Positions 53,060 through 62,871 of a stretch of 64,000 nucleotides of DNA are shown here, piece by piece. This DNA comes from Diaphorobacter limosus (lineage in GTDB: Bacteria > Pseudomonadota > Gammaproteobacteria > Burkholderiales > Burkholderiaceae_C). The notes beneath the pieces are model-generated. The model had not been told where the DNA came from. It saw only the letters and a program-made list of their open reading frames with translations, and did no database searches. The translations under genes and the position numbers were made by a program. Every line of letters begins with the position of its first letter. The first letter of the stretch is position 1. The stretch covers positions 652,501-716,500 of the forward strand of contig NZ_CP136921.1 of the NCBI RefSeq assembly GCF_033100095.1, written 5' to 3'.

Positions 53060-53590
53060 ATGTCCTTCAGCAGCTCCGACGACGATAGCCAGCAACGCTT
53101 CGCACTCGGTTTCCTCTTCGCCTTGATCGCCCTGGTGGTATCCACCATTTTGGGTGTGGTGGTCTTCAAGCGTGGCATTGCCCATGCCCCCAAGGCACCG
53201 GCCGCGGCCGTGGTCAATGCAGGCGGTGCAGCGGGTGCCGGCGTGGTGATTGAGGATGTGGCTTCGGTGGTGGTCGAAGGCGGCGTGGTGAAGTTCTACT
53301 TTGCCACTGGCAAGGCCGACCTGGCGATTGGCGCCAACGAGGCCCTGGCCGAGGTGGTCAAGGGCGTGGTCGAAGGTGGCAAGATGGCCGTGGTTTCGGG
53401 TTTTCATGACGCGACCGGCGATGCTGCACTCAACGCCGAGCTGGCCAAGCAGCGCGCCCTGGCCGTGCGCGAGGCCCTCAAGGTTCTGGGCGTGGCTGAA
53501 GACAAGGTGGAGCTGAAGAAGCCCGAAGTCACGCAAGGCAGCGGCAGCAACGCCGAGGCGCGCCGCGTCGAAGTCGTACTGGCCCCTTGA
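53060..53590 (+). CDS. OmpA-like domain membrane protein
   Basis: Protein of 176 residues. One membrane helix (RFALGFLFALIALVVSTILG, about 13-32), then an Ala/Val-rich linker and an OmpA-like domain (VVKFYFATGKADLAIGANEA, VVSGFHDATGDAALNAELAK, EARRVEVVLAP). Probably anchored in the inner membrane with the OmpA domain in the periplasm, bound to peptidoglycan. The ATG with GGGAG upstream is used. Divergent from chaC; ended by a strong terminator. Confidence 0.82.
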   Translation: MSFSSSDDDSQQRFALGFLFALIALVVSTILGVVVFKRGIAHAPKAPAAAVVNAGGAAGAGVVIEDVASVVVEGGVVKFYFATGKADLAIGANEALAEVVKGVVEGGKMAVVSGFHDATGDAALNAELAKQRALAVREALKVLGVAEDKVELKKPEVTQGSGSNAEARRVEVVLAP

Positions 53591-53611
53591 ATCCGCGCTG
53601 TCTTGAGCGAG

Positions 53612-53636
53612 AAGCCCGGCATTGCCGGGCTTTTTT
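53612..53636 (+). terminator. Rho-independent terminator of the OmpA-like gene
   Basis: Perfect 9-bp stem AAGCCCGGC / GCCGGGCTT with a 3-base loop, then TTTTTT. Lies between convergent genes. Confidence 0.93.
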
Positions 53637-53654
53637 GCTGATGCGCCGTGACTT

Positions 53655-54068
53655 TTAGCGCAGGCCACCGCCAGCCGCTTCGCTGGCGCGCTGGATGAGT
53701 TCGATCTTGTAGCCGTCGGGGTCGGTGACGAAGGCAATCACCGTGGTGCCGCCCATGACAGGCCCGGCCTCGCGAGTCACATTCCCGCCAGCAGCCTTGA
53801 TCTTTTCGCAGGCCGCATAGGCATCAGGTACGCCCAGCGCGATGTGGCCGTAGGCCGTCCCCATGTCGTAGCTTTCGACGCCCCAGTTGTAGGTCAGCTC
53901 GATCTCGGCCTGGTCGGGGTTGCCGCCATCGAATCCCAGGAAGGCCAGCGAGTATTTGTACTCAGGGTTCTCGGACATGCGCAGCAACTGCATGCCCAGT
54001 ACCTGGGTGTAGAAGTCGATCGAGCGCTGGAGGTTGCCGACGCGCAGCATGGTGTGGAGGATTCTCAT
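53655..54068 (-). CDS. gloA: Lactoylglutathione lyase (glyoxalase I)
   Basis: Protein of 137 residues. Converts the methylglyoxal-glutathione hemithioacetal to S-lactoylglutathione. Metal ligands fit GloA: H5 in [11 protein letters not shown] in [12 protein letters not shown] in AYGHIALGV and E in [10 protein letters not shown]. Last chromosomal gene before the mobile element; its upstream region is AT-rich and probably altered by the insertion. Confidence 0.95.
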
Positions 54069-54130: not shown

Positions 54131-54173
54131 AACGCTTGTGATTGTAAGTCATTTTGCCCTTCTGAATTGTGGT

Positions 54174-54182
54174 TTATCCACA
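54174..54182 (+). promoter_or_regulatory. Perfect DnaA box upstream of parA
   Basis: TTATCCACA, the exact 9-base consensus, 16 bases before the parA ATG. A single box, so it could modulate parA transcription; it does not by itself show an origin. Confidence 0.55.
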
Positions 54183-54198
54183 GTTCAGCGAGGTCGAT

Positions 54199-55149
54199 AT
54201 GTTTACATTTGGAGTGGTAGCCACCAAGGGTGGGGTCGGCAAAACCACAGTAGCAGCCAATCTCGGCGGCCTCTTGGCCGACATTGGTTACCGCGTCTTG
54301 CTCATTGACGCCGATGTACAGCCATCGCTATCACGCTACTTCGTCGTCTCGAAGGAGGCCGAGCATGGCCTGACCAAGATGGTCATGGATGGCTCTCTGA
54401 CGCCCGAATGCATCAGCCAGATTGAGCTCCCTCCTGAATCCTTCTCAGGCGACCATGACCTGCTCAACAAACAGGGCGGGTTCCTGCATCTCGTGCGCTC
54501 GGACACCCGCGATGGACGCCTCCAGGACTGGCTGAGTAATCGTCTTGATCGCCTCGTGCGTATCCGCATGGCTATCAAAAATACCTCGCTCGCAGATAGC
54601 TACGACGTAGCGATTATCGACACGCAAGGTGCTGTGGGGCACCTTCAGGATGCAGCAGTTAATGCATCCGATCTGCTGATCACTCCGGCCTCGCCGGATA
54701 TTATCAGCGCCCGTGAATTCGTAGATGGGACGCTTACCCTATTAGATCGCCACGAATCGTCGGCGAATATGGGATTTACCGTTCCGGCGATGCGTGCGAT
54801 TATCAATCGGGCAGAAAAAACCGTCGATAGCCGATCCATGGCTGGTCTCATCCGCGACCAATTCATGACGTTGCGCGGCCGAGTGACAGTGCTCAATACT
54901 GTGGTGACGGCTGCTGTGGCCTACAAGAAGGCTGCAACCTCCCAGGTGCCCGTGCATTGGATCGATCCGGTCAAGGCTGGCGACACTATGCACGCGTTGC
55001 TGTGGGAGCTGTTGCCACACCTTGAGGGCACGTTTGCCCCAAATCACCGAAAAGAGATCGACCCCTCTCTGGTGGTGCCTAAAGCCGATCCGGCACCGGA
55101 GACGGGTGCCGATGGTGAGCACACCAGTGCTGGCACAGACGATGAGTGA
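54199..55149 (+). CDS. parA: ICE ParA-family ATPase
   Basis: Protein of 316 residues. Walker A of the deviant kind VVATKGGVGKTTVAANLGGL (residues about 6-25), LLIDADVQPSLSRYFV, and Walker B-like VAIIDTQGAVGHL. C-terminal tail is acidic and Pro-rich. In ICEs of this class the ParA is needed for stable maintenance of the excised circle. First gene of the element in this orientation, 14 bases before parB, and preceded by palindromes and a DnaA box. GC is clearly below that of the chromosome genes. Confidence 0.88.
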   Translation: MFTFGVVATKGGVGKTTVAANLGGLLADIGYRVLLIDADVQPSLSRYFVVSKEAEHGLTKMVMDGSLTPECISQIELPPESFSGDHDLLNKQGGFLHLVRSDTRDGRLQDWLSNRLDRLVRIRMAIKNTSLADSYDVAIIDTQGAVGHLQDAAVNASDLLITPASPDIISAREFVDGTLTLLDRHESSANMGFTVPAMRAIINRAEKTVDSRSMAGLIRDQFMTLRGRVTVLNTVVTAAVAYKKAATSQVPVHWIDPVKAGDTMHALLWELLPHLEGTFAPNHRKEIDPSLVVPKADPAPETGADGEHTSAGTDDE

Positions 55150-55163
55150 GGGGAGCATGAGCC

Positions 55164-57002
55164 ATGACCCCCTCCAGAACCCCTGAAACGCTGACCGCCG
55201 TACAGCGGGCACAGCGCTTGAACCTCCACCCGCCGCCCGCGTTGGCTGAATCCGATGCAGGCCACGCGCACGCGTACCAAGACAAGAACCCCATGGTAGT
55301 GAAACCAAGCAAGCAAGAGCGAAAGATCATGGAGCAGGCGCGCAAGTCCTTGCCGCCCCTGAGTGGCCCGCGCGCCAGTGCGACCGCCAACCTAGACCCT
55401 CGCAGCGATGCCGAGTTGTCGTTTTCTATCCTTCCTGTCTCGGAAATCGTGGCCTATGGCCACAACCCGCGCCAGGGACAGAACCCGCGATATGACGAGC
55501 TCAAGGCCAGCATCAAGGCCGACGGCATCACCAACATCCTCACCGTCACACGGCGCAGTGTGGATGACAAGTACACGCCCTATGGCGGAGGAAACACGCG
55601 CCTGCAGATTGCCAAAGAACTGTTTGCCGAAGGCGATCAGCGCTTCGCGCAGCTGCGCGTCATCGTCAAGGAGTGGCCCGGCGACGCCCAGGTGATCACC
55701 GCGCACCTTGTAGAAAACGAGCTGCGCGCAGACATCACCTTCTGGGAAAAAGCCCGGGGCGTGCATCAGTTCCGTATCGAACTCGAACGCGAGCAGCAAA
55801 AACCACTCACCGCTGGTGAGCTCAACCGTGAACTGCGGGCGCGCGGGCTCAATTACGGCGTCAAGACGATCCAGAACTTCACCTTCGCGACCGAAGAGCT
55901 GGCTCCGGTCGGGCCTTGGCTCAAATCCACCCAGGTCAATGAAGTCACGCGGCCCAAGGTGTCGGCACTGCTCGAACTTGGCGCCAAGCTGGGGCAGGGC
56001 AAGGCCATGCGGGAACAGCTTCAGGTAGTCATGCACCAGTACGGCGACGCTCTGCGCCTGCGTGCCAAGAGCAACGAAGACCTGGAAGCAGCCGAGCGTC
56101 TGCCGGTGGAACTCGACGATGCGGCGCTGCTGGCCGACCTGCAGTTGGCTGCAGTACAGGAGTTGGGCCTTGCCGGACGCCCGCAGCTGGAGGCCGCTCT
56201 CTCCGCCATGGAGGCCGATCCCAAGTTGTCGCGCGACGATCTTCGTGCCGTTGGGCAACGTCCTGTTGCTGTGGCCCCGCCTCCACAACGGCTGACCTTT
56301 GCACCAGAGAATACCGACCCGTCGGAGCCATTCACGCCCCGGGCAGACCCAGAGTCAGCGGCGCAACCATCGGCACCCGATGGGATCCAGCAAGCTCCGC
56401 TACCCGGAATGCTGGCAGGCATATCCGCCCAGGCACAGCCGGGCAGGGTCAAGGCTGGAACGCATGCAGCCCAGCATGCAGTGGCCACTGACCCCTTGAG
56501 CGAGGCGTTCAAGGGTATCCGCGACCTGCTTGGTGAGATCAACGCAGACGTTCCCCTGAGCGACGTGCTGTGCAACCTGCCTCTTGCGCCGTTCGGCTTC
56601 ATGGTCGATTTCCCGCCGCAAGACATGGCGCACATCAACGGTGAGCCTGTCCGCTCCGATCTGGTACCGCTGCGCGCCGCGGTCTGGAAGCTACTGGCCG
56701 CGCTGTCCTACCAGTACGACCGACGCATTCCGGGCGCGATTCCACCCCAGCATGTCACCGAAACGATCTGGACAACGACCTACACCAATGGTCGTCAGGC
56801 CTTTGAACACGCCTGTGCGCAGAAGGCCGGTATGCCTGTCTCGGGGAACTATTACCAGATGGGCATGGACGAGCTGGGTCTTGTGCTGGCCGCGCCCAAG
56901 CTGGGCTACAGCGTGATCAAGCTGTTGGCCGCGATGGAGCAGATGCGCCTGAAGTTTCCCGATCGCATGCCTGTGGGATTCCAGCCGCTGTTCGATACCT
57001 GA
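55164..57002 (+). CDS. parB: PFGI-1 class ICE partitioning protein ParB
   Basis: Protein of 612 residues. ParB/Srx-like N-terminal domain (LPVSEIVAYGHNPRQGQNPR, DELKASIKADGITNILTVTR, TPYGGGNTRLQIAKELFAEG), then a helix-turn-helix region (FWEKARGVHQFRIELEREQQ, ELNRELRARGLNYGVKTIQN), a long Pro/Ala-rich linker (about 360-440) and a C-terminal helical domain. Much longer than chromosomal ParB (about 300), as usual for these ICEs. Starts ATG with a GGGGAGC site. A candidate parS is near 60.05 kb. Confidence 0.87.
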   Translation: MTPSRTPETLTAVQRAQRLNLHPPPALAESDAGHAHAYQDKNPMVVKPSKQERKIMEQARKSLPPLSGPRASATANLDPRSDAELSFSILPVSEIVAYGHNPRQGQNPRYDELKASIKADGITNILTVTRRSVDDKYTPYGGGNTRLQIAKELFAEGDQRFAQLRVIVKEWPGDAQVITAHLVENELRADITFWEKARGVHQFRIELEREQQKPLTAGELNRELRARGLNYGVKTIQNFTFATEELAPVGPWLKSTQVNEVTRPKVSALLELGAKLGQGKAMREQLQVVMHQYGDALRLRAKSNEDLEAAERLPVELDDAALLADLQLAAVQELGLAGRPQLEAALSAMEADPKLSRDDLRAVGQRPVAVAPPPQRLTFAPENTDPSEPFTPRADPESAAQPSAPDGIQQAPLPGMLAGISAQAQPGRVKAGTHAAQHAVATDPLSEAFKGIRDLLGEINADVPLSDVLCNLPLAPFGFMVDFPPQDMAHINGEPVRSDLVPLRAAVWKLLAALSYQYDRRIPGAIPPQHVTETIWTTTYTNGRQAFEHACAQKAGMPVSGNYYQMGMDELGLVLAAPKLGYSVIKLLAAMEQMRLKFPDRMPVGFQPLFDT

Positions 57003-57034
57003 ACCTGAAGAAGAAACCAGAACCGGGAGAAACC

Positions 57035-57625
57035 ATGCTGCAGATCACCGACCCTACCCTCAAACGCATGCTGCTCGATCAGATCGTGGCCCGCATTGAC
57101 GCCGGCGGCATCGACGATCTGTTGCAGGCCGGGTTCAGCCCAGAGTTTCTGGATCGCATGCGGCATAGGCCTGCGCGCGATTTGATCAAGGCATCCGAAG
57201 TGCCAGCAATCGAGTTCCGGGTCACGATCAAGGAGCGCGCCATCACCGAATACTTCGCTCGCCTGGACATGATGCGCCGCGACGCCCAGATGTGCGAATA
57301 CTTCATCCGCCACGGTGCCGCCGTTCAGGTGGTCTGCATGCTTTGGAAAATCTCTGCCGAAGAGGTGCGTAGCCTGCGCGCTCAGCTGCTGCCCCCCGAT
57401 CAGCCGTTAGGACGCAATCGCATGCCGGCGCCCGCAGTGCGCGACCAGATCCACGCCCGCTGGGCTGAACTTGAGGCGGACGATCCCCGGGGATCGCTGC
57501 GCGACAGGCTGTATCGCCTGCATCAGTCCTTTCCTGACTGTCGCATCGACTCGCTGTGCCGAACCATCGACGAGTTTTCTGCCGAGCCGTCATGGCCTGT
57601 GACCGATTTTGGAACCCTCTCTTGA
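57035..57625 (+). CDS. DUF2857 domain protein of ICE
   Basis: Protein of 196 residues. Core DUF2857 features: LLQAGFSPEFLDRMRHRPAR, then EYFIRHGAAVQVVCMLWKIS and LYRLHQSFPDCRIDSLCRTI. It sits after parB in every element of this class I know; role unknown, probably regulatory or replication-linked. ATG with GGGAGA upstream. Ends 19 bases before the next ATG. Confidence 0.82.
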   Translation: MLQITDPTLKRMLLDQIVARIDAGGIDDLLQAGFSPEFLDRMRHRPARDLIKASEVPAIEFRVTIKERAITEYFARLDMMRRDAQMCEYFIRHGAAVQVVCMLWKISAEEVRSLRAQLLPPDQPLGRNRMPAPAVRDQIHARWAELEADDPRGSLRDRLYRLHQSFPDCRIDSLCRTIDEFSAEPSWPVTDFGTLS

Positions 57626-57644
57626 ACGCCATCGGAGCCGCACC

Positions 57645-58187
57645 ATGACCAAGCTCGCTCTGCTCAGCCGCAACCGCGTTTCCCGTCGCCAGAAGCGCAT
57701 CAACGACCCCGAGCAAACACCGCGATCCGGCCTGCAGGTCGGCGAATTGCGGCGACTGCCCAACGTCCTCGGACAGGCTGCGCTCCTGGAATGGCTGGGA
57801 CAGGCGCCCATCAGCTTCAACCGGGCCTATGTGGGCCTGGCGGGCGGCGTGCTGCAAGCCCTGTGGCTGTCGGCCGCAATGGAGCGCGTCTCCAACGCCA
57901 AGGCTCATGAGTTCGAGGTCAATGGCGATTTTGTCTTTTCCATGTCTGAGGCGGAATGCGAAGCTGCCATCGGATTGATCCGCTCGCAGCAGCACAAATG
58001 TCGGCGTGACCTGGTTGCATCAGGTCTGATCAGCGTGAACAGTCTGCCGCCTGCACCCCCCGTTTACCGTCTGCACCTCGACTGCCTGGCGCGCAAACTG
58101 CTGGCGCAGTCCGCGCCTTTGGCCGAGCACCTGGCTGCATATGAGCCACTGCCAGAGTTGCCTGCGGCATGGGAACGCCAAGCCTGA
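57645..58187 (+). CDS. ICE protein with a winged-helix-like segment
   Basis: Protein of 180 residues of unknown function. Central MSEAECEAAIGLIRSQQHKC then RRDLVASGLISVNSLP and VYRLHLDCLARKLL follows the same spacing as the DNA-binding segment of the next gene's product (WEDATGLTAREQ, VRELLLQNHLLLERV, LHYRVDLARL). So the two neighbours look like paralogous winged-helix proteins. Its end overlaps the next gene by 19 bases. Not a named family to me. Confidence 0.6.
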   Translation: MTKLALLSRNRVSRRQKRINDPEQTPRSGLQVGELRRLPNVLGQAALLEWLGQAPISFNRAYVGLAGGVLQALWLSAAMERVSNAKAHEFEVNGDFVFSMSEAECEAAIGLIRSQQHKCRRDLVASGLISVNSLPPAPPVYRLHLDCLARKLLAQSAPLAEHLAAYEPLPELPAAWERQA

Positions 58188-60004
58188 GACGGAGCCATAT
58201 CGTGGCCTATCCCGTGCTCGCACCATCAACCACGGCAAGTCCAATGGCTTGCCCACGGCCCTCTATGGAGCCATTTGTAGATGAAGGCGCCGCCCTGCAG
58301 CACCTGGGTCAAGGCGGTTTCATTCAGTTCCATCTAGCCCTGGCTGAACAACTAGGTTTCAAGGCGGCATTGTTCCTCGGGCATGCCCTGTACTGGAGCC
58401 GCCATCTCGGCAAGAAGGAACCGCAACGTGGTGGCTGGTTCTTCATGACCGCGCGTCAATGGGAGGATGCCACGGGCCTGACAGCGAGGGAGCAGGCCAG
58501 CGTGCGTGAGCTGCTGCTGCAAAACCATCTGCTGTTGGAGCGTGTCGCCGGCAGGCCTGCCCGCCTGCACTACCGGGTCGATCTCGCCAGGCTGGCCCAG
58601 TGGAGCGGCTTGCAAGCCCACGCTGATGGGGCGCCAGCAATCACCTGGGAAGCGTTCGCACCCTGGCTGAAAACCTCGATCAGCTTCTACCGGCCCCTGG
58701 CCCGCATCAGCGGGTCAGTCGCCAGCGGCCTGCTGCTGTCCTATCTCTTGCGCCAGCAACGCGCAGCAGTGCGCTCCGGTGAAGCCACCTTCGAAGGATA
58801 TTTCCGACTGTCGCACGAGGATGCACGCATCGCCCTGTGTCTTGGCACCAAGACCCAGCGCAATGCGCGTGAACGCCTCAAGGCGCTGGGCTTCCTGCAA
58901 GAACGAGCTGGCGGCCTGTGTCATGTGAATCTGCATGCGCTCCAGGATGCCATTGGGCATGTCGAGAAGCTCCCGCAGCCTGCCCGACTGCATGCGGTCG
59001 CCAGGCCGCCGGCCGCAGTGGCACCTTCCGCCGAAGGCCTGGCCGACGCGGTGCGCTGGCTGGCAGAAGCCGATCGACGCCCAACGACTGATCCCGTGTT
59101 GTATGAGCATCGTGTTCAGGATCAGCTACAGCTGGATCTTTTTGGGCGCTGGCTGACCGACACACCGCAGGGGCAGCAGACCACGCACGTCGTGACACGC
59201 ATGTTCGGCAATACAAGCGCGAGCCCGGTGCCCGTCGGTAGCTTACATCCCGCGAATCAAAACCATGGAAACTTGTCGGAAATAAGGTGTCAACCTTCTG
59301 CCCTTTTGTCGAACCATGAATCCAATGACCATACGACAAAAGGGCAAGCACCTGCCGTTTTGTCGAATCATGGTTGCCGTTTTGTCGAATCTACCTCGCC
59401 CTTTTGTCAAACCCATATACAACAACATAACAATCAACCTACAACGACTACCGCGTGCGCCCGCGAGGATGCCTCGGGGTTCGACAAAACGGCAAGTCGT
59501 CGTCGGATTTCTGAAACCTCCCCATCCGAAGCCCGGTCGGCGCAACAGGTATCGCCCACCGCACCCCTGCCAGCAGCACCTGTAGAACTCGGCAGCCTGA
59601 CTCTGCCGAAGGCGTTGGGCCAGGAATGGCACGAGGGCGTGCGCCGCACCCTGGCCACTGCACCTGCGGCCATTCACCAGGCCTTGCTGGATGAGCTGGA
59701 GGGCCAGCTCGGCCTGCAGGGCAAGACCATCCACAACCCTCCCGGCTACCTGCACGCGCTGATCCGTCGCCATGCCAGCGGCACGCTGGATCTGGCGATG
59801 GCGGACAAGGTGGCGGCCGACAGATCCCAGCGAGCACACCATGAGCAGGTCATGCGCAAGGCAAGGCAGGAAACGGAACAGCCTCGACCTACAGCAGTCA
59901 CCCAGGAGGCGCAAGAAACTCAACCTTCGCCAACCGTGGTTGAGGCGCGCCGCAAGCTGCTGACCCTGCGTCGCGAGATTGCGGGGAAGGGGAGGGCGGC
60001 ATGA
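58169..60004 (+). CDS. Replication-initiator-like winged-helix protein with internal iterons
   Basis: Protein of 611 residues. N-terminal about 290 residues: two helical winged-helix blocks (GGWFFMTARQWEDATGLTAR, VRELLLQNHLLLERV, LHYRVDLARL; then SGVASG..LSYLLRQQ and HEDARIALCLGTKTQRNARE). A low-complexity, Asn/Thr-rich linker (about 350-450). C-terminal module (VELGSLTLPKALGQEWHEGV, GKTIHNPPGYLHALIRRHAS) like plasmid and phage initiator tails. It occupies the place of the STY4528-type gene in related ICEs but differs from that family as I know it. The linker DNA holds six iterons. Start at ATG overlapping the previous gene; later ATGs at 58244 and 58265 are possible. Confidence 0.65.
   Translation: MGTPSLRRSHIVAYPVLAPSTTASPMACPRPSMEPFVDEGAALQHLGQGGFIQFHLALAEQLGFKAALFLGHALYWSRHLGKKEPQRGGWFFMTARQWEDATGLTAREQASVRELLLQNHLLLERVAGRPARLHYRVDLARLAQWSGLQAHADGAPAITWEAFAPWLKTSISFYRPLARISGSVASGLLLSYLLRQQRAAVRSGEATFEGYFRLSHEDARIALCLGTKTQRNARERLKALGFLQERAGGLCHVNLHALQDAIGHVEKLPQPARLHAVARPPAAVAPSAEGLADAVRWLAEADRRPTTDPVLYEHRVQDQLQLDLFGRWLTDTPQGQQTTHVVTRMFGNTSASPVPVGSLHPANQNHGNLSEIRCQPSALLSNHESNDHTTKGQAPAVLSNHGCRFVESTSPFCQTHIQQHNNQPTTTTACAREDASGFDKTASRRRISETSPSEARSAQQVSPTAPLPAAPVELGSLTLPKALGQEWHEGVRRTLATAPAAIHQALLDELEGQLGLQGKTIHNPPGYLHALIRRHASGTLDLAMADKVAADRSQRAHHEQVMRKARQETEQPRPTAVTQEAQETQPSPTVVEARRKLLTLRREIAGKGRAA
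59300..59493. repeat. Six iterons (GCCSTTTTGTC) inside the initiator-like gene
   Basis: Direct copies start at 59300, 59354, 59376 and 59398; the last three are exactly 22 bases apart. Inverted copies are at 59335-59345 and 59483-59493. Most extend to GCCSTTTTGTCGAAYCAT. The direct copies occupy all three reading frames (LLSNH, CRFVES, PFCQT), so conservation is at the DNA level. AT-rich DNA (about 59411-59450) follows the tandem copies. Confidence 0.8.
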
Positions 60005-60026
60005 GCGCGATACGCAATTCGATGAA

Positions 60027-60081
60027 CCGGGACAGTTTGTCCCACGTGGTAAGCCTTACCACGTGGGACGTTTTGTCCCGG
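60027..60081. promoter_or_regulatory. 55-bp palindrome with twin CCACGTGG boxes (candidate parS)
   Basis: Perfect 13-bp arms CCCACGTGGTAAG / CTTACCACGTGGG around a single C, flanked by GGGAC-N5-GTCCC motifs on both sides. CCACGTGG (60042-60049 and 60059-60066) is the core of bacterial parS. The outer part contains GTTTTGTC, shared with the iterons. It lies between the initiator-like gene and a small winged-helix gene, so it could instead be the operator of the latter. Confidence 0.65.
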
Positions 60082-60110
60082 CTAGTCAATATTTAGCAAA
60101 GGAGACAGCA

Positions 60111-60590
60111 ATGGATAGCAAGCAACTTTTCACGGAGCTGGTTCACCGCCTTCAACGCTACGACGATTCCATGGTTCTGCATGCGGTGATTCAGCAGCAG
60201 GCAGACGTTACCGAACTTCGAACCTCTGCAACTCGGATCGCCTTGGACTTTCTTGGGAATCGCGTTCAGAAGAAGCAGGTACAGCGTGCGTTGGATCGAC
60301 TGACTGACATGGGCCTTCTGCAAGTCCAAGCGCACCCCAACTACCGCACCCACATCACGGTGGATCGTGAAGCGGTGCAGGCATTGCTTCGCACCCCGGT
60401 GAGCGACTACCTGCCAGGCCTGAATAGCGACAGCTTTCCGTTTTTGGATGACCTGAATGCCAGGAGGAAGGCCGAGAGCGGCGTGCTGCCGGCCGGCTGG
60501 GGCTGGCCTTCACCGACGTTATCTGAACCCAGGAAGGACGATTCCGTTGAGGCCAAGCCCGAGCCACCTGCACCAATCAAGCATCACTGA
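60111..60590 (+). CDS. ICE winged-helix protein
   Basis: Protein of 159 residues. A winged-helix-like core: QVQRALDRLTDMGLLQVQAH with YRTHITVDREAVQALL following. N-terminal helix LFTELVHRLQRYDDSMVLHA. C-terminal Pro/Lys-rich tail. ATG with AAAGGAGA ribosome binding site. The large palindrome lies directly upstream, so autoregulation is possible. I do not recognise a named family. Confidence 0.6.
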   Translation: MDSKQLFTELVHRLQRYDDSMVLHAVIQQQADVTELRTSATRIALDFLGNRVQKKQVQRALDRLTDMGLLQVQAHPNYRTHITVDREAVQALLRTPVSDYLPGLNSDSFPFLDDLNARRKAESGVLPAGWGWPSPTLSEPRKDDSVEAKPEPPAPIKHH

Positions 60591-60659
60591 TTCGCCTGGA
60601 TCAGCGTTCGTCCCATTGCCCATGCCCCGCTGTCACAACCGAAATCTACCCTCATCACC

Positions 60660-61799
60660 ATGGCCACCACTCGCAACAAGTCACCCAAGAATGCCGCAGC
60701 GTCAGCTCCCACCAGCCAGGAAGCTGCCGCAATGCCGAGCATTCCTGCGCCCGTAGGATTCGCCTTCGCCACCGAGCCCAATTCACCGTTTTCTGATGGC
60801 TACAGCATCGCCAAGGAGGAAGCGGCTCTGGCCGAGTACATGGCCGGGCCAATGAGTGAGACCGATCCCTTGTATGACAGGTACATCGAGCTGGAAGATC
60901 GCAAGGATCGGCTGGAACGGCGCAAGGTGGAGTTCGACGGCCGCAAGGGTGCTGAGTCGGTGGTGACGCGTCAGGAAGCCAGGGCCATTGACGCCCTGGG
61001 GGCACTGGTCGATGAGGAGGTCGATCAGATGACGATCCACACCAAGGAGGCCTATCGGATGTTCATGGGCCGCACGCGCGAGCCTGGCAAGGAAGCGGCC
61101 CCCATCATCGGCGGGCGGCGCGTGGCTGCGGCCTTGCGTGGGCTGTGGGTTCTGACGGGCTACGACAACCCGTATGCCGATTGGGCCTTGCTGCGCCATG
61201 AGCAGACCATCGACGAGATTTGCAAGCGCCTGCGGCGCGAAACCAAGGAAGCTGAATCACTTCTTGCCGATCTCAAGAAGAAGGGCTTGAGCTTCTCGAT
61301 TCTGCAGTCCGCCGAACCCAAGGTGCTCAACCTAGGTTACCGCTCTCCGTATGGCTATGCGATTTCCACGCTGATCGTGGAGTTCGACTATTTCGTGCGC
61401 CTGCAAAAGACCCTGGCCCGCAAGACGCTGCGCTCGGATGACCAGGCACGCCAGGCGATTTCTGAACTGACGCGGTTCATTCGTCGGGTGTTCAATGAGA
61501 CGGCGCGGTTTGATCGATGGCTCACCCGTGAGGAAGTCAAGGCCCTGTCTCGCAGTGACTTCATCCCGGAATCTGGGGCAGAAGCGCAGAAGCGGGTGGA
61601 GTTTGCATCAGAAGTATTCGGTATCGTTCCCAGCGAGGTCTTCACCGGCAAGCTGCATCCGCGCCACTCGCGTCGCCGCACGGGGGATCTAACGGCAGCA
61701 GAGCGTCACTTGCTACAGACCCTGGGAGCGCACCTGGACGATATAGCCCAGGGTGGGTCAGGCGCAGGGGCGGATCAATCTGATGCAGGGCTGGTGTGA
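60660..61799 (+). CDS. TIGR03761 (PFL_4669) family ICE protein
   Basis: Protein of 379 residues. The core LDEEVDQMTIHTKEAYRMF-like stretch (ALVDEEVDQMTIHTKEAYRM, near 118-137), AALRGLWVLTGYDNPYADWA and SRSDFIPESGAEAQKRVEFA fit the TIGR03761 family found only in these elements. The N-terminal about 100 residues (Ala/Ser-rich then charged coiled coil DRYIELEDRKDRLERRKVEF) are an extension. Function unknown. Followed by DUF3158 and ssb as in related ICEs. Confidence 0.78.
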   Translation: MATTRNKSPKNAAASAPTSQEAAAMPSIPAPVGFAFATEPNSPFSDGYSIAKEEAALAEYMAGPMSETDPLYDRYIELEDRKDRLERRKVEFDGRKGAESVVTRQEARAIDALGALVDEEVDQMTIHTKEAYRMFMGRTREPGKEAAPIIGGRRVAAALRGLWVLTGYDNPYADWALLRHEQTIDEICKRLRRETKEAESLLADLKKKGLSFSILQSAEPKVLNLGYRSPYGYAISTLIVEFDYFVRLQKTLARKTLRSDDQARQAISELTRFIRRVFNETARFDRWLTREEVKALSRSDFIPESGAEAQKRVEFASEVFGIVPSEVFTGKLHPRHSRRRTGDLTAAERHLLQTLGAHLDDIAQGGSGAGADQSDAGLV

Positions 61800-62395: not shown

Positions 62396-62475
62396 ACTGA
62401 GGCATGGATACCCTGGTCTTGTGGCACTGGTGCAGCTGCTGGGCCTTCCTTGAACCGCACCACGAGGAATAAGTG

Positions 62476-62871
62476 ATGCAGAACCTTTTCATTGGCAAGG
62501 GCAACCTCGGCGATTCGCCAAAGTTGAAGCATGTTGCCGGCAGGAGCGGCGATTTCACGGTGGCGTCGATGCGTGTCATGTTCGGACGCTATGGCCAGAC
62601 CGAGGATGGTGGGGTAGAGCAGGTGGGTGGTTTCTGGCGTGAGGTCGAGATTTACGGCGCAAAGGCCGAGGCCTGTGCCAAGCATCTGCGCAAGGGTGCT
62701 CGAGTGCTGGTCATCGGTGAGGAACGAGAGTTCACTGCCACGGATGACGATGGCAATGAGGTGCAGGTGATCAAGGTGGTGGCCGAGGATGTGGCGCTTC
62801 AACTGTCGCGGATTGAATCCATCACGTTCACGCCATCACGCGCACGGGAAACAGAAGCGGCCGAGGTTTGA
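62476..62871 (+). CDS. ssb: Single-stranded DNA-binding protein of ICE
   Basis: Protein of 131 residues with an OB-fold resembling SSB: MQNLFIGKGNLGDSPKLKHV (N-terminal strand), FTVASMRVMFGRYG, FWREVEIYGAKAEACAKHLR and GARVLVIGEEREFT. Lacks the acidic PF tip of chromosomal SSB; the end is SRARETEAAEV. Probably coats transferred or replicating ICE single strands. A GTG directly before the ATG is an alternative start. Confidence 0.85.
   Translation: MQNLFIGKGNLGDSPKLKHVAGRSGDFTVASMRVMFGRYGQTEDGGVEQVGGFWREVEIYGAKAEACAKHLRKGARVLVIGEEREFTATDDDGNEVQVIKVVAEDVALQLSRIESITFTPSRARETEAAEV

Follow-up and report, generated by a model that had tools for sequence, protein, structure and literature searches.

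In Diaphorobacter limosus, a gene for a 611-residue protein probably encodes the vegetative replication initiator of an integrative and conjugative element (ICE) of the PFGI-1 class, and the DNA in the middle of this gene would serve as the origin in a lambda-O-like architecture. The gene lies in the window, which here means the whole stretch of 64,000 nucleotides that was analysed (contig NZ_CP136921.1, positions 652,501 to 716,500). The direct support for this assignment, held with good confidence and drawn from sequence comparison, consists of an array of iterons, its coding in three frames, its recurrence with changed sequence among relatives, the constraint on synonymous sites, an O-like N-terminal domain, a C-terminal module of the STY4528 type, the ICE genes, and flanks that are adjacent in one relative.

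Iteron array and domains of the candidate initiator

The initial annotation had described six copies of GCCSTTTTGTC within 59300-59493, three of them 22 bp apart, inside the gene of a 611-residue protein. Both the six exact copies, of which two are inverted, and the open reading frame (ORF) were found precisely as described (Table 1). Iterons 3, 4 and 5 start exactly 22 bp apart, and iteron 1 lies 54 bp ahead of iteron 3. Since 22 bp correspond to two helical turns, the iterons would face the same side of the double helix. The 22- and 54-bp steps of the window, as well as the 44-, 54- and 44-bp steps in the corresponding gene of pKLC102, are near whole turns. The four copies on the plus strand occupy codon phases 0, 0, 1 and 2, which agrees with the earlier statement that all three reading frames are used. 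When up to one mismatch was allowed, nine matches were present in the window against a mean of 2.21 in shuffled sequences, and one of the 100 shuffles got to nine. The longer pattern GCCSTTTTGTCRAA had five matches in the single 4.1-Mb contig of the host, every one inside the initiator gene, and its backwards control had none. A genome-wide or small mobile repeat was rejected on the grounds that the iteron repeat is confined to the initiator gene in the host genome. The presence of AT-rich DNA after the iterons was also confirmed: the GC content is 30% at 59409-59435, directly after the last tandem iteron, and in 60-bp windows it amounts to 40-50% across 59240-59449 compared with 52-80% in the remaining windows of the gene.

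The domains of the protein were named from profile matches. Residues 57-145 match the phage family 'replication initiation O-like' (phrog_9773, E=1.1e-17), and 25 phage records were matched by tblastn (residues 39-144), several of the 20 listed carrying an O-like annotation. The comparison with lambda O made in the initial annotation is therefore more than an analogy at the N-terminus. The second domain, N2, is a paralogous copy of N1 (hhalign profile comparison, probability 98.2, E=5.3e-14). In a profile comparison (17 sequences; probability 98.4, E=1e-14), 126 columns of the STY4528 C-terminus were aligned with residues 472-605. The proposed layout of an N-terminal winged-helix half, a linker and a C-terminal module stands, and it can be refined by assigning the last of these to the STY4528 type.

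Recurrence in homologues and constraint on the DNA

The initiator protein was detected in 20 of 398 genomes in a family-wide search, the own genome counted. A search of a genome-contig collection yielded 18 loci and a protein search 92 proteins, 45 of which were aligned together with the window protein (alignment A1, 46 sequences). The peptides ALLSK, CRFVE and LPFCR recur in the linker of the aligned proteins, and a single DNA unit, TTGCCSTTTTGTCGAAAC, yields all of them when read in its three frames. In the 18 contig-collection loci, the matches of GCCSTTTTGTCGAA outside the homologue gene had two mismatches each. The repeat unit at the same place differs among relatives, being TGCCCAAACCGCSAAAC, TGCCCAAACCGGCAAAC, TGCCGTTTCCTGCAAAC or TTTGCCCTTTTT-type in the printed linkers when these were compared by eye, and a comparable AT-rich stretch is visible 3' of the iterons in the printed homologue sequences. 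Conservation of the iterons thus holds for the position and spacing of the array in most homologues, but not for the iteron sequence itself, which changes between relatives.

To evaluate the spacing, triples of 15-bp windows at steps of 19-26 bp were scored, and the best one was compared with 200 synonymous-codon shuffles that preserve the protein; loci with an ORF lacking both searched sequence motifs were excluded. Among the 18 genes of this sample, which are related and not independent (L007 shares 95% identity with the window gene, for instance), 14 reached the floor of p=0.005, and 12 of them had steps of exactly 22+22 bp with copies in three frames. The best 22/22 triple of the window gene scored 39 against a maximum of 31 in the shuffles. 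Among 124 other ORFs of at least 250 codons from both strands of ten loci, used as a control with 100 shuffles, a single one passed (p<0.02), an ORF whose coordinates make it antisense to the L037 iterons. When the copies were counted irrespective of their spacing, 10 of the 18 genes exceeded all 20 shuffles, L010 and L014 among them, the excess in L012 stemming from a repeat other than the iterons. One or the other test was passed by 16 of the 18 genes. L013 (= L044) has three exact copies at irregular spacing. The outcomes named beforehand as contrary, that is homologues without repeats or repeats kept as a peptide in one frame, were not encountered as far as the sequence allows a judgement.

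A further 16 more distant loci (15 of those excluded from the spacing test, and L077) were subjected to the copy-count test only. Six of them, L018, L022, L023, L050, L051 and L077, were above 20 shuffles, L051 being doubtful on account of its GC-rich repeats. A gene on a Burkholderia glumae plasmid passed the spacing test with a score of 38 against a shuffle maximum of 34; this plasmid also holds another ParA/ParB/helix-turn-helix (HTH) cluster and may replicate by other means. A DNA-level search of plasmids with window positions 57000-60700 gave no match, and none of the 100 matched stretches in viral contigs was confirmed as a relative. As separate observations, the distant relatives L018 and L022 have quite different in-gene arrays of the AGTAGGCGAGTTTT or AGTTGGCCGGTTTT type, mostly at 22-23 bp, and the O-like gene of Acinetobacter phage TRS1 (L087:2911-3789), whose N-domain matches the window protein, has GCACAA..CCGCC units that visibly recur within the gene itself.

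Selection on the DNA was assessed from codons with the same amino acid in both genes of a pair, the iteron/AT-rich segment being compared with the other counted segments of the gene. Between the window gene and L035, 1 of 72 such codons differed inside the segment and 81 of 359 outside it (p=1.8e-6). The corresponding values were 3/34 and 157/350 for L012 and L045 (p=1.7e-5), 5/29 and 152/279 for L039 and L046 (p=1.3e-4), and 0/40 and 55/507 for L040 and L045 (p=0.025). In sliding windows of 60 codons, the synonymous minimum between the window gene and L035 was located at the same place as the iteron segment; the L040/L045 pair had low synonymous windows elsewhere in the gene as well. Since synonymous change collapses in the iteron segment, selection acts on the DNA, and this constraint is the strongest evidence for the DNA itself as a functional object. 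The earlier claim that the DNA and not the peptide is conserved was correct in its first part, as the synonymous sites are nearly frozen, but the peptide at the iterons does not drift freely, as the recurring pieces indicate.

Known nested origins, proposed mechanism and alternatives

Initiators with a nested origin are already known from lambda and from RepA_N and RepC plasmids; the present case concerns a class of ICEs. In the lambda O gene, according to the accessible parts of the sources, iterons and a high-AT stretch are situated mid-gene (PMC6022878, PMC7466680). The window gene likewise has iterons and an AT-rich stretch between its N-domain and C-domain, and the N-domain belongs with the O-like phage family. 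The lambda iterons, however, contain 18-bp inverted repeats, whereas those of the window are direct iterons at 22-bp steps with two inverted copies in addition. The window protein further differs in its two tandem N-domains, in its STY4528-type C-terminal module and in being carried by an ICE rather than a phage, and a lambda P-like helicase loader was not recognised among the 10 window genes scanned at 54.2-63.2 kb. The RepA_N protein of pSK41, in the part of the source that was available, has a winged-helix N-domain, Rep boxes central in rep, an origin-encoded linker and a C-domain contacting primase, and in pPR9 a conserved C-domain is combined with a different N-domain and origin (PMC5703833). 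The window gene would share this layout, but the hosts differ, and the window protein gave no Pfam match of any kind, RepA_N included (threshold E=0.1). In p42d, which carries the RepC of the repABC plasmids, the origin is located in the initiator gene, near or inside an AT-rich region (PMC3155836, available in part), as is proposed for the window gene; the p42d repC is reported to have no iterons, and the RepC Pfam domain is likewise without a match in the window protein at the same threshold. A sequence search of solved structures with the initiator protein also gave no match.

The STY4528 proteins of islands of the pKLC102/SPI-7/ICEHin1056 type share with the window the C-terminal module, the gene order and nested repeats followed by AT-rich DNA. 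In the profile comparison, however, no part outside the C-terminal module was aligned, the N-terminal half included, and the full-length model NF040582 (STY4528) gave E=1.9e-4 and 21.6 bits for the window protein, under its cut-off of 130. A query with a STY4528 protein matched 33 plasmid records. All eight that were fetched have the order ParB, DUF2857, STY4528 gene, PFL_4669, with extra genes between them in some, and the window has the order ParB, DUF2857, initiator, PFL_4669, with extra genes at 57609 and 60111. Nested repeats are visible in the STY4528 gene of all eight records; the copy number is above the shuffle maximum in six of them (pKLC102, pSGI4 and ICEHin1056 included) and ties with it in pPant4 and P. 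veronii. In the pKLC102 type the repeats are palindromes 44-54 bp apart, unlike the 22-bp-spaced direct iterons of the window. The test for triples at 19-26-bp steps, in which L063, L074 and L079 of the 22 genes from the STY4528 search reached p=0.01, is ill-suited to such palindromes. A different HTH (PF13730, E=6.7e-10) occupies the N-terminus of the STY4528 relative L060, and the ICEHin1056 protein matches RepC with E=0.045 only. As an observation apart, several of the STY4528 genes L056-L060, L062, L063 and L082 have an AT-rich stretch between inverted runs of TAG and CTA triplets, e.g. GTAGTAGTAGTTATATAAATAAA...CTACTAC, which we take to resemble DnaA-trio unwinding elements.

In the accessible part of the PFGI-1 paper, a palindrome is printed as part of a putative vegetative origin (oriV), and no Rep protein is said to be encoded. 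Four variant copies of this palindrome, with 3, 3, 3 and 5 mismatches of 23, are located inside the STY4528 gene of pKLC102; a 19-base pattern derived from it was found in none of 369 class-level genomes. The putative oriV of ICEHin1056, with iteron-like repeats in an AT-rich region, has been likened to those of pKLC102, SPI-7 and PAPI (PMC2258188, available in part), and the NCBI family name already labels STY4528 proteins as replication proteins. In the accessible text of the open-access literature searched, no statement was found that an origin is nested in the STY4528 gene or that the published PFGI-1 oriV lies inside its initiator gene. We infer that the A+T-rich half of the PFGI-1 oriV may lie inside PFL_4668 and that PFL_4668 may be the missing Rep.

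The mechanism can be outlined by analogy with lambda and pSK41 RepA_N. The tandem winged-helix-type domains would bind the 22-bp-phased iterons in the DNA encoding the protein's own linker, the bound initiator would put the AT-rich stretch (59409-59455) under strain so that it opens, and the replicative machinery would be recruited by the C-terminal module, the excised circular ICE thereby becoming able to replicate. Binding, melting, helicase recruitment and initiation at the iteron site are in this way predicted from the known systems. On the whole, the interpretation in the initial annotation is supported and extended, with self-containment of the module as a prediction. Since the initiator gene would carry its own recognition sites in cis, protein and origin would be transferred as a unit and could change their specificity in concert. 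A wider proposal, in which moderate confidence can be placed, is that in the PFGI-1/pKLC102/SPI-7/ICEHin1056 superfamily the vegetative origin is nested in the element's own initiator gene, and that this was overlooked since published descriptions placed the repeats, as an oriV, upstream of PFL_4669 without recognising the surrounding gene as a Rep. The N-terminal DNA-binding half and the nested iterons would constitute one cassette, and two unrelated cassettes (tandem O-like domains with 22-bp direct iterons, and another HTH type with palindromes) would be found on one conserved C-terminal loading module. The DNA-binding/iteron halves look exchangeable, and the specificity of the origin, hence incompatibility, could be switched by a single recombination event; each of the three frames of one DNA unit gives a different conserved peptide.

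Several observations weigh against a nested origin. Four of the 18 genes (L011, L013, L010 and L014) failed the spacing test, 10 of the 16 distant loci showed no copy-number excess over the shuffles, the segment borders in the synonymous test were drawn after the iterons had been seen, and a standard DnaA box was not found in 58169-60700. In a Mantel test on 17 genes, with iteron cores assigned by eye, the iteron core distance followed the divergence of N2 when the C-module was allowed for (partial rank r 0.48, Mantel p 0.001). However, the correlation with N1 was weak (partial 0.16, p 0.066) and the C-module given N1 also correlates with the iteron core distance (partial 0.27, p 0.014), so that co-divergence of iterons and protein is no more than a hint. 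As far as the accessible text describes it, the published oriV of PFGI-1 includes another half, partly intergenic, at which replication might actually start. Moreover, TraI and oriT1 have been reported to be involved in the multiplication of ICEclc (PMC6561031, available in part).

The main rival explanation is replication from oriT driven by the relaxase, with the nested repeats serving for control. In its general form it states that the repeats are autoregulation or copy-control sites (operator or incompatibility) and that replication starts elsewhere, e.g. at the intergenic palindrome or by rolling circle from oriT; this is considered unlikely. In the same partly available study, deletion of traI or oriT1 lowered the number of ICEclc copies in transfer-competent cells, and the difference from other cells remained in the traI deletion (P=0.0195) and was lost in the mfsR-traI double deletion (P=0.0805) (PMC6561031). 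The array of the window gene, however, lies roughly 1.1 kb 3' of the start codon, in a synonymously constrained segment that also takes in the AT-rich stretch beside it; this fits unwinding more readily than repression, and in lambda O and pSK41, according to the sources available in part, such a layout functions as an origin. A role of the repeats as centromere-like (parS) sites for the adjacent ParB is very improbable. In its favour, genes of the ParA and ParB type are present just upstream, and repeated partition sites are common in the vicinity of origins. However, the iteron core changes in step with N2 beyond the C-module, a weak argument with ParB divergence outside the comparison, and the intergenic palindrome is an alternative candidate for parS. 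The explanation that the array simply reflects repeats in the peptide, or the codon bias of a linker of low complexity, is hardly credible and was rejected: although the ALLSK, CRFVE and LPFCR pieces recur among homologues, one peptide cannot explain copies in three frames, the array does not arise in the protein-preserving shuffles for 14 of 18 genes, and the synonymous sites are nearly frozen.

A nested initiator and origin bears on the replication mode of excised circles in PFGI-1-class ICEs, for which, in the accessible texts, one published member is said to be Rep-less and ICEclc points to the relaxase and oriT1; pKLC102 has been reported at up to 30 copies per chromosome (PMC7685784, available in part). 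It predicts a minimal replicon and an incompatibility determinant legible from the sequence, i.e. the iteron core, and it offers a way to distinguish theta from rolling-circle copying. The relatives keep the arrangement despite the changed repeat sequence, which provides a testable proposal for the copying of the element. The gene would also illustrate how, in nature, DNA-binding sites can evolve in three frames of a coding sequence, with a specificity that shifts among related genes.

The carrying element and the gene neighbourhood

Judging from its genes, the element carrying the initiator belongs to the PFGI-1 class of ICEs. Among the nine downstream proteins that were scanned, four were above the cut-off for ICE transfer models (TIGR03760, the PFGI-1-class relaxase/MobH; TIGR03754, TraD; TIGR03744, TraC; and TIGR03755), one is a XerC/D-like recombinase and four were without a match. 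The relaxase gene ends near 821.2 kb of the contig and the recombinase lies at about 789.6-790.6 kb, with more PF00589 matches at 718, 733 and 738 kb. The flanks (window 53300-54060, and the DNA from 821.6 kb) are about 550 bases apart and in the same orientation in the genome G765 (78% complete), and this locus is likely the empty insertion site of the ICE (G765:C36 4079-4628 versus G000:C1 706560-821591). Seven genomes of the genus, the own one included, were searched; in those other than G765 the flanks are widely separated (by about 88 kb in G004), lie on different contigs or are only partly matched. The adjacency in G765 gives an apparent ICE extent of about 706.6-821.5 kb, i.e. about 115 kb with the left 10 kb in the window, a border that rests on this one relative. 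Neither a direct repeat of at least 13 bp between 705.5-707.5 and 819-824 kb nor a tRNA gene in 704-824 kb was found.

Table 1. Features of the candidate initiator gene, its iteron array and its neighbours (window coordinates)
Feature	Position	Strand	Basis or remark
ParA-type ATPase, left end of the ICE	54169-55149	+	
ParB-type protein, resembles PFGI-1 ICE class	55164-57002	+	TIGR03764, E=2.4e-41
DUF2857 protein, syntenic ICE neighbour	57035-57625	+	PF11198, E=4.2e-18
Upstream gene, 192 residues, overlaps start of initiator ORF	57609-58187	+	third copy of N1/N2 domain type
Candidate replication initiator gene with nested origin, 611 residues	58169-60004	+	ORF, domains, homologues
Winged-helix-type domain N1, about residues 44-150, related to phage O-like initiators	58298-58618	+	phrog_9773
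Domain N2, paralogous second copy, about residues 158-266	58640-58966	+	hhalign N1 vs N2
Iteron 1, GCCCTTTTGTC	59300-59310	+	phase 0
Iteron 2, inverted	59335-59345	-	
Iteron 3	59354-59364	+	phase 0
Iteron 4	59376-59386	+	phase 1, 22 bp after iteron 3
Iteron 5	59398-59408	+	phase 2, 22 bp after iteron 4
AT-rich stretch, presumed unwinding element, contains ACAACGACTACC	59409-59455	.	GC content
Iteron 6, inverted, past AT-rich stretch	59483-59493	-	
GTCGTCGTCG element after AT-rich DNA	59492-59505	.	by eye, many printed homologue linkers
C-terminal module core, about residues 472-545, common to STY4528 replication proteins	59582-59803	+	
Palindrome, 27-nt arms, 85% complementary, between initiator gene and next gene	60027-60081	.	
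PFL_4669-family (AcaB-like) ICE protein, syntenic neighbour	60660-61799	+	
Single-stranded DNA-binding protein	62473-62871	+	

The ParB-type protein scored 142.1 bits with TIGR03764, just under the cut-off of 143.75. The ATG of the initiator ORF, its putative start codon, falls within the end of the upstream ORF, whose product matched the N2 profile (probability 94.3, E=1e-7) and the N1 profile (probability 90.7, E=1.2e-6) and is a possible partner or regulator of the initiator. The palindrome downstream of the initiator gene could be a parS site, an operator or a second half of the origin; the same intergenic slot holds palindromes in several relatives, some of them in tandem, with differing sequence. 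The same module, with another iteron type, is present at the start of a 143-kb circular record of Comamonas aquatica, which may be an excised ICE. The listed features of this record name no other rep gene, its gene table being incomplete to the point that the homologue itself is unlisted. A gene of a length similar to that of the 192-residue upstream gene of the window is located at the corresponding place of the Comamonas record.

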